Of a stretch of DNA of 59,132 nt, positions 29,501 through 32,500 are shown in pieces. Position numbers and translations under genes: made by a program. Within the stretch, counting starts at the first letter, position 1. The number at the start of each line of letters is the position of its first letter. Below the pieces are notes generated by a model. It was not told the DNA's origin and did no database searches. It saw only the letters and a program-made list of their open reading frames with translations. This stretch comes from Candidatus Kuenenia stuttgartensis (GTDB lineage Bacteria; Planctomycetota; Planctomycetia; Pirellulales; UBA1268), in NCBI GenBank assembly GCA_945870505.1, contig CAMBSN010000007.1:1-59132 (forward strand), read 5' to 3'.

Positions 29501-32500
29501 TCGGGCCGCAGCAGACCGTGAGTTGCCCGCGGGGAATGTCAGCATCGACCTGCTTGAGGTTGTGGAGGGCGGCACCGCGGACCGTGATCATTGGCGGGCC
29601 CGGATCGCGGGAGGTCTTCTGGACCGTGTCGAGCATTGCCGCCACCGCGGCCGCCGGGTCTTCCACCTTCTTCCGGCGGACGGCCACCTTTCTTGCTGGC
29701 TTCGATGCTTTCGTCGCCGCCGCGAGGATCGGCACGAGGGCCTGCCCCGTGTGCGAACCCTTGGCCTTGGCGATCTTTTCAGGCGGGCCCTCCGCCACGA
29801 TTCGGCCACCGCCGCCGCCGCCTTCAGGCCCGAGGTCGATCACCCAGTCGGACCGCTTCACGACGTCGAGGTTGTGCTCCACCACGAGCACCGTGTTGCC
29901 CGCCTCTACGAGCCGCTCGAGCACTGTGAGTAGCTGCCGCACGTCGGCCATGTGGAGGCCCGTCGTCGGCTCGTCGAGCACGTAGAGCGTTTTTCCTGTG
30001 GAGCGTTTTGCCAACTCACGCGACAGCTTGACTCGCTGGGCCTCGCCGCCCGAGAGCGTGGGCGACGGCTGGCCGAGATGCAGATAGTCGAGCCCCACGT
30101 CGCAGAGCGTCTGGAGTTTCCTCGCGATGTCGGGGGCGTCTTGAAACAGCTCCAGCGCCTCGCCGACCTCCATGTTCAGAAGATCCGCGACGCTCTTGCC
30201 TTTCCATCGAACCTCCAGGGTGTCTTTCGCGAACCGGGCTCCGCCGCAGACGTCGCACGTCACCCACACGTCGGCCAGAAAATCCATGTCGAGGCGCACC
30301 GAGCCGTTACCCTCGCAGGATTCGCAGCGGCCACCCGACACGTTGAAACTGAATCGGCCAGCCTTCCAGCCCCGCTTCTTGGCTTCGGGGAGCATCGTGA
30401 AGAGGTTGCGGATGTCGTCCCAGACCTTCACGTAGGTCGCCGGATTGCTCCGCGGTGTGCGGCCGATCGGCGACTGGTCGATCACGATCACCTTGTCGAG
30501 GGCGTCGGCACCCTTGATCGCGTCGAAGTCGCCGGGCGTCGCCACCTCGCTGCCGAGGAGTCGCCGCAGTTCCGGCTCCAGCACGTCACCGACGAGCGAA
30601 CTCTTGCCGCTGCCCGAGACGCCGGTCACGCACACCAAGAGCCCCAACGGGATCTCGACGTCGATCCCCTTGAGGTTGTTGTGCCGCACGCCCTCGAGCC
30701 GCAGCGTCTTATCACCGGGCTTGCGCCGCTCGGCCGGCAGGTGGATCGCATCGCGGCCGGAGAGAAATGCCCCGGTCACGCTTCGCTCGCTCTTCGCGAT
30801 GTCGTCGGGCGTGCCCGCCGCCACCACCTCGCCGCCCCGTTTACCTGGCCCGGGACCGAAGTCGATCACCCAGTCGGCGGCCCGGATCGTGTCTTCGTCG
30901 TGCTCGACCACGACGACCGTGTTGCCCTTGTCGCGCAGGGCCTCGAGAGCCCCGAGCAACTTCACGTTGTCGCGGGGGTGTAGGCCGATCGACGGCTCGT
31001 CGAGCACGTAGAGCACGCCCGAGAGCCCCGAGCCGATCTGGGCCGCGAGCCGAATCCGCTGGCTCTCGCCACCTGAGAGCGTGGGGGCCTTCCGGTCGAG
31101 CGCGAGATAGCCGAGGCCGACTTGATCAAGGAACGAAAGCCGACTGGAGATCTCCTTCATCAGTTCGACGGCGATCAGTTTCTGCGTGGCGTCGAGGACG
31201 AGCGTGGCGAGAAACTCGCGGGCATCGGCGATCGGTAGGGCACAGAGCGCGTCGAGCGAGAGTTGGGCCCGATGGCCGTCGGGATCCTTCTTCGCCGCGG
31301 TGAGCCACGCCTTCGACGCCGTCGTGATTCGCACGGCGCGGGCCTGGGCAGAGAGCCGCCTGCCCTGGCAGTCGTGGCAGGGGGTGACGCTCATCAGCTT
31401 TTCGAGCATCCGGCGGATGATGCCGCTCTTCGCGGTCCGCCAGCGGTTGGCAAGCAGGCCGCAGAGCCCCTCGAACTTCGTCTTCGCCCCGCGCTCCGCT
31501 CGCCCGCGCTTCCACGAGAGCTTGATTTCTTCGAGGCCCGTGCCGCTCAGCCAGAGTTTTTTCTGGGCGGCGGTGAGGTCTTTCCACGGCGTGTCGAGGA
31601 GCGTGCCCGGGTCGAGCTTTTTCTTCGCCTCCACGTGGGCCGCCACGCCGGTTAAAAGCCGTCGCAGCCACCGTGGCATGTCGCGGAACGTGCCCAGCAC
31701 ACCGATCGCCCCCTTGCGGAGCGTTTTGTCGGGCTCGGTGACGAGCTTGGCGGGGTCGATGCCGTAGATGTCGCCGAGGCCCTCGCAGGTTGGGCAGGCG
31801 CCCTGCGGACTGTTGAAACTAAAGAGCTGCGGTTCCGGTGTCGAATAGCTCACGCCGCAGGCTGTGCAGGCGTAGTTGCTCGAGAGCACGAGGTCGGAAA
31901 AAGGTGCCAGCCACCTTTTCTGCGAAGCACCTCTGCCGGCTTTGCCGGCCGAGGCCGTGCCCCCATCGGGGGCTGGGAAAAGGTGGCTGGCACCTTTTTC
32001 GTCTTGTTCACCGGCCACGATGACCTGGCCGCCGGAGGTCTTGAGGGCGAGTTCCACCGCCTCGGCGATCCGGCTTCGCGTGGCGTCGCCCGGCACGAGC
32101 CGATCGACCACCACGTCGATCGTGTGCTTGATCTGCTTCTCGAGCGGCGGCGGATCCTCGACGCGGCAGATGGTGCCATCCACGCGGGCCCGCGTGAAAC
32201 CCTGGCGGACGAGATCGGTAAACAGATCCCGGTGCTCGCCCTTTCCGTCGCGGACGAGCGGCGCCAGCAGCATCACCCGCTCTCCCTTGCGGGCCGCGAT
32301 GATCCGCTCCACGATCTGGTCGCGAGGCTGCGCCTCGAGCACGGCGTCGCACTCGGGGCAGTGGGCCGTGCCCACCCGCGCGTAGAGCACGCGAAGGAAG
32401 TCGTGGATCTCCGTCATCGTGGCGACGGTTGATCGCGGGTTCGTGCCCGCCGACTTCTGCGCGATCGAGATCGATGGCGAGAGTCCGGTCACGCTGTCGA

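Follow-up and report, generated by a model that had tools for sequence, protein, structure and literature searches.

Rickettsia palindromic elements are palindromes that are kept in frame in proteins. They are mentioned in a 2013 study (PMC3733652), the relevant portions of which describe TIRtrons (TIRYTs), in which a RAYT-like gene lies between inverted repeats that are also found as genomic dimers, some with GGGGWSAS. The same portions report that REPs can lie within genes: both uvrA genes of Opitutus terrae contain REPs and REP dimers, as does uvrA of Thioalkalivibrio, and in two Xanthomonas REPs occur at about the same site of recB. REPINs were defined by Bertels and Rainey (2011, PMC3116915); in the pertinent part of that paper, they are spaced pairs of inverted repeats that are dispersed in a genome, with the same repeat beside a Y1 RAYT gene. 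TnpA-REP and its cognate REPs co-evolve, according to PMC8266576. The kind of element described below is known, as are REPs in uvrA; the unusual part is the recurrent turnover at one linker.

We analyzed a stretch of 59,132 nt (hereafter, the window) from contig CAMBSN010000007.1 of the planctomycetotal assembly GCA_945870505.1. This genome (G000) is a MAG of 180 contigs (3.35 Mb, 87% complete, 3.6% contamination); other G numbers denote genomes of relatives, which are also MAGs, and L numbers denote loci. Family names (A, A2, B, B2, C, D and E arms, and "core II") are our own labels. The features of the window discussed here are as follows.

26574..32723, minus strand: uvrA, encoding a tandem double UvrA of 2049 aa, host of the element (open frame and profile match)
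31897..32000, minus strand: REPIN-like palindromic element with family A arms and a "core II" interior, in frame in uvrA
31977..32000, minus strand: first arm in the coding direction, GAAAAAGGTGCCAGCCACCTTTTC, containing the AAAAAGGTGCCAGCCACC core shared with RAYT flanks
31921..31976, minus strand: core containing inner hairpins; its nearest matches are cores that have B-like or E arms in other genomes
31897..31920, minus strand: second arm, an inverted copy of the first
38779..38875, strand unassigned: another family A copy (repeat match over 38776-38875) whose arms are 96% complementary; the codon test did not call it in frame
49842..49941, strand unassigned: another family A copy, not called in frame by the codon test

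The uvrA element is real, in frame and REPIN-like. An earlier note on this DNA had placed a 104-bp element with perfect 24-bp inverted ends at 31897-32000, and this was borne out: the two 24-nt arms are 100% complementary and separated by 56 nt, and the coding strand with its flanks (31890-32010) folds at −77.2 kcal/mol, compared with −42.8 ± 3.5 for 200 shuffles (z = −9.85). With one additional base, the element makes up 35 codons (E242-S276) in the single open frame of uvrA, so that the note was right about the frame and about some 35 residues ahead of the first zinc site, having left unsaid that the protein is a tandem double UvrA; its word "translated" should be softened to what the intact frame implies, namely that the element is presumably translated. 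No target-site duplication was seen at the uvrA element except a possible 3-nt GAC, which may be due to chance, and this is all that the search proposed in the note yielded; no target consensus was found by eye in the flanks of 23 own-genome copies. The alignment of relatives that it had also proposed did reveal short, non-palindromic linkers (G021 and G002). It did not reveal a clean insertion at the exact point: measured against short-linker relatives, the spans were 58 and 31 codons rather than a 105-nt insertion, and part of the linker was replaced, or had already differed, at the element site. An Rfam scan of the window returned a tRNA as its sole match. Nor did the elements prove to be shaped for coding: open frames in 18 copies stood at 4.0, versus 4.0 in shuffles.

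The host was identified as UvrA by a match to NF001503 of 2433.6 bits (cut-off 1147). The element residues (242-276) follow the UvrB-binding domain and precede the first zinc site. The gap between aligned blocks at this point (query residues 236 and 277) measures 6 residues in the best PDB UvrA match and 40 here; this linker is short in solved structures and varied in length and composition among relatives. In an AlphaFold2 model, based on an alignment of 30 sequences (the window's own and 29 relatives), residues 241-275 had a pLDDT below 50 and no secondary structure, with strands at 233-238 and 278-281 on either side, in a model that was poor overall (mean pLDDT 65.5, pTM 0.43), with 229 of 1000 residues below 50 and conserved parts among them. 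The structure prediction suggested by the earlier note thus weakly hints at a peptide that is disordered between two strands. The element is probably a passenger that a disordered linker tolerates. The linker of the second UvrA half (window 28371-28476, minus strand) holds another palindromic repeat, GCCCrGGGCCGTrAGGCCCGGGG, with two units in G000, three tandem units in G005 and none in G021 or G002; that of G015 is long and of other sequence. Similar palindromes also occur at window positions 35829, 44113 and 44214.

The note's view of an amplified and probably mobile unit held up well. In addition to the two further copies in the window, BLAST against the own genome found 15 other near-full-length places with 71–79% identity, based on the 40 candidates scored out of 52. 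In G000, searching for a 20-nt arm pattern and allowing two mismatches gave 51 forward and 49 reverse matches, versus one for the reversed pattern; we count these 100 matches as 57 family A arm places because most palindromic arms match both strands. Hence, two inverted repeats with a spacer are dispersed in the genome, as in REPINs. An ad hoc codon-usage test of both flanks called 5 of 57 tested places in frame (3 of 21 in G000, 1 of 16 in G020, whose uvrA copy is outside these 16, 1 of 10 in G043 and 0 of 10 in G044), which makes the places mostly extragenic, again as in REPINs. For family A in G000, the in-frame places were 2 of 20: uvrA and a pair in a helicase-like ORF on contig C136. When ORFs over 13 other own copies were searched with Pfam, a domain spanned the element in one of them (L035). 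This helicase-like ORF on C136, with an SLFN-g3 domain, carries two in-frame pairs (138-193 and 553-609) that belong to different families, A and B. In G020, a family C pair lies in frame at L232 1479-1566 (plus strand), in what looks like a gene for a protein of the glutamyl-tRNA synthetase type.

G000 has two Y1_Tnp matches, one above the Pfam cut-off (C13:28092-28436) and one below. The C13 gene is open and flanked on both sides by inverted 29-nt copies of AAAAAGGTGCCAGCCACCAAATCTGGGTA. These RAYT flanks and the uvrA arm have AAAAAGGTGCCAGCCACC in common and differ on the outer side (TTTTC vs. AAATCTGGG), so that the same repeat stands beside a RAYT-type Y1 gene in the element's own genome. 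Across the genus, a Y1_Tnp match at E ≤ 0.01 was present in 11 of 22 genomes and scored above the cut-off in nine. In a separate alignment of nine RAYTs, that of G000 among them, all were open, with HWH and RYVERN[PA]LRA[NR]LV. Inverted flanks of 26–30 nt surround the RAYTs of G000, G001, G008, G018 and G021, and flanks of 23 nt occur in G044. The flanks in G008, G018 and G021 resemble those of G000, whereas the flank is GAAAAAGGTGACAGTCACCAAATCTGGG in G001; G044 has two RAYTs, one flanked by AAATGGGGACGGGAGCGAATTTC and the second by GGTGCCTGGCACC, and that of G043 has AAATGGGGACGGGACTGAATTTC on the single side seen. A RAYT-like gene therefore lies between inverted repeats that recur as dimers, which is the TIRtron/TIRYT arrangement.

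Compared with REPIN/RAYT systems as presented in the pertinent part of PMC3116915, the locus shares the spaced and dispersed inverted pairs and the repeat beside a Y1 RAYT gene, but it is intragenic, it has different families at one site between species, and no GTAG/CGTC tag was present at a fixed place: GTAG, CTAC, CGTC or GACG occurred in an arm or within 10 nt of it in 5 of 17 own copies, with no single tetramer in most of the 17. Compared with the TIRtrons of PMC3733652, as far as the relevant portions go, the RAYT-like gene within inverted repeats that are also dimeric is alike, but no A–D arm fits GGGGWSAS exactly; fitting octamers, GGGGACAG and GGGGTCAG, occur in the linkers of G006 and G009. 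The uvrA cases in those portions likewise have REP dimers within uvrA, but Opitutus terrae and Thioalkalivibrio are reported to carry them at different sites, whereas here one linker holds several families among relatives. The element is very probably a non-autonomous REPIN-like unit of the RAYT/TIRtron kind. Its two inverted repeats around a structured core would form the non-autonomous unit, spread most likely by a single-strand (HUH, Y1) RAYT encoded elsewhere in G000, a movement suggested by the gene, its flanks and the repeats. The element would then have entered the linker that separates the first zinc module from the UvrB-binding domain.

We then compared this linker, bounded by GQVIVA.E and DLVLSS.YAC, among relatives. 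A UvrA N-half match was found in 37 of 40 genomes searched, G000 included; of 92 loci, 86 were parsed and six were not, leaving 66 linkers distinct by their last 120 nt. Palindromes exceeding those of shuffles were present in 14 of the 66; L135 was left out of the count as marginal, since it scored 13 in a span of 318 nt whose shuffles reached 12. Besides family A in G000, we found A2 in G001; B in G005, G015, G010, G004, L099 and a second uvrA of the own assembly on contig C63; B2 in L096; C in G020, read in another register than the other families; D in L104 and L140; and a D-like palindrome in L107. The linker was short and plain in G021, G002, G008, G011, G012, G003, G014 and G017; other relatives had a linker that was plain but long. 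The relatives have either no such element or a different sequence at this point, and the repeat is dispersed elsewhere in the genome. On a tree of 51 UvrA rows with the linker removed (L075, L078 and L127-L129 unparsed, L118 and L139 left out), palindrome presence in 12 rows took eight changes on the best tree, at least five of them forced by well-supported branches, and 5 of 500 label shuffles needed as few. The second uvrA on C63 (L074) has 85% identity and a tree position in another lineage, and C63 is probably a contaminant contig. In another family of the same order, the linker of G028 (L069) holds a palindrome of other sequence.

The arm type in uvrA was the type flanking a RAYT in all four genomes in which the linker is palindromic, a RAYT scored clearly and its flanks could be read: A in G000, A2 in G001, B in G044 (one of its two RAYTs) and B2 in G043 (one side seen). 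G004, G005, G010, G015, G020, G040, G041 and G042 also have palindromic linkers, with no Y1 match or none with such paired flanks. Family-specific patterns were often repeated in the corresponding genomes. The B2 pattern occurred 27 times in G043 and not in seven others, and A2 eight times in G001, once in G044 and not in seven others. The pattern shared by C and D gave 36 matches in G020, 23 of which were the exact C arm, and the D pattern 17 in G040 (15 exact D), 12 in G041 (control 1), three in G042 and 35 in G044. The B pattern (up to one mismatch) was present in 13 of 22 genus genomes, with 20 matches in G004, 10 in G010, 11 in G000 (four on the odd contig C63), five in G015 and three in G005; two each in G005 and G015 are the uvrA arms themselves, so B is barely repeated there. 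Thus, G005 and G015 (51% and 75% complete) agree less well with the resident-family match, as does G044, where D is the commonest family, yet B is in uvrA. In G040, a marginal Y1 match (23.0 bits, 100-codon frame) has a single A-like arm nearby and the uvrA arm is D. No Y1_Tnp match was found in G020, which is 94% complete, so the mobilizer of family C is unseen. G008, G018 and G021 have family A RAYT flanks, yet no uvrA palindrome.

Turnover at the linker looks fast on sequence comparison, because near relatives differ in family or are without a palindrome. G000 and G005 differ by 5.4% in the flanks (14.4% at third positions) and have A and B arms, respectively; L140 and L097 differ by 4.8%, and L140 has D whereas L097 has no palindrome. 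The earlier note's "recent or under selection" is too simple, since the two nearest sisters of G000 (G005 and G015) carry family B at the site, which shows element turnover and not a single young insertion in a previously undisturbed gene. In 10 of 13 elements, the final CC of the right arm lies exactly 7 nt before GA[C/T]CT (8 nt in L107 and L109, 13 nt in L099), a count in which the B rows are not mutually independent. This fixed right junction spans families A, B, B2, C and D, whereas the left junction is variable; for L109 and G004, the offset on the left is an artefact of the script's motif. As the right end is shared while own copies have no target consensus, this suggests either a local hot spot or replacement of elements through the T-rich end.

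Under the REPIN-like reading, the linker would tolerate open frames, so that elements are kept as a disordered peptide, and insertions elsewhere in genes would mostly be purged. In sister species, the site would have been filled, emptied or refilled by other families, often the genome's resident one, through new insertions or through exchange between elements sharing A-rich and T-rich ends. It is a tentative and fairly unlikely extension that the UvrA linker is a standing dock for RAYT-type palindromes across the lineage, with resident families replacing each other and the peptide tracking the current transposase; possible causes would be exchange guided by the shared A-rich and T-rich ends, or an advantage to the element of lodging in a repair gene.

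A possible but rather doubtful alternative is that the arms switched in place: G000, G005 and G015 would have had an ancestral B element, both arms of which became A in G000 while the core was kept. G000 groups with these two B carriers (support 97/91), and its core shows 0.73–0.83 identity to six copies with B-like or E arms (0.83 to a B-like copy of G020, 0.78 to an E-armed copy of G002 and 0.76 to a B copy of G015), compared with 0.60–0.67 to 15 A-armed copies (13 own and two of G021); L007, whose arm pattern was not matched, L018, L032-L036 and L042 were outside this comparison. Among the loci fetched, which are part of the sequence matches, the core type of G000 was found in seven elements. 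Of these, the uvrA copy has A arms, another has E arms and the remaining five have B or B-like arms, whereas 22 distinct A-armed sequences had the other core. A single core type thus occurs with three or more arm types, and among these loci no element except the uvrA copy combines A arms with core II. However, the core is only 0.74 identical to the uvrA cores of G005 and G015, although the flanks differ by 5.4% and 9.8%, and an inherited core should be closer, which weakens simple in-place descent from a sister element. In addition, four B-armed copies of G004 and G010 (0.59–0.66) are no closer than the A-armed ones, and a donor with A arms and core II may sit in unassembled sequence or among unopened matches.

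It is unlikely that the hairpin is kept for a function, such as an mRNA structure setting UvrA translation or a peptide altering the contact of UvrA with UvrB or DNA. The very stable fold would fit this, as would the elements of G005 and G015, which are identical at all but 2 of 104 nt (all but 1 of 99 in the part compared) while their flanks differ by 4–15 per 100 nt in one comparison and by 9.8% in another (24.5% at third positions); because the element is near-identical while the flanks diverge, it is constrained or was recently exchanged. L096 and L074 further differ by a concerted GGGAGC to GGGACT change in all three repeat units that keeps the arms complementary. Nevertheless, 52 of the 66 distinct linkers are without a palindrome by our rule, the families differ and C lies in another register, no peptide motif common to the families was seen, and open frames are as in shuffles.

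A Rickettsia-type palindromic element, or a MITE of a DDE transposase, is very improbable. The likeness drawn in the earlier note is sound as to mode, since a protein gene here retains, in frame, a palindrome of some 100 bp, but the phylum is another and the REPIN/TIRtron kind is nearer, as a Y1/HUH transposase gene of this genome has flanks that match the arms; DDE elements, moreover, usually leave a target-site duplication, and none was seen. An assembly artefact at the repeat is more improbable still: repeats can misjoin in a MAG of 180 contigs, but both flanks belong to one uvrA, collinear with its nearest relatives at 93–97% and intact in frame, the assembly contains no other close copy of the whole core (just the 71–79% places and a 24-nt piece at C105), and other MAGs have other palindromes at the same point.

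Several palindrome families appear to fill one UvrA linker repeatedly, often in agreement with the resident RAYT, which would be new relative to the literature searched, where no account of REPs being exchanged recurrently at a single UvrA site was found. The linkers form a natural series in which REP-type elements have inserted in frame at a single position of a conserved repair protein. Because near relatives can be compared for arm type, core and transposase, two questions become testable: by what route REPINs spread and alter their specificity, and whether the REPs noted in repair genes in 2013 are merely tolerated or are under selection.

The window also contains another dispersed repeat around CACAGGTTGnnAACCTGTG (36706-36859, 33042-33132 and 26539-26569), with two tandem 77-bp units at 36706, and two very large ORFs on the minus strand, at 903-9743 (2946 aa) and 12877-26271 (4464 aa), the latter with repeats every 297 nt.
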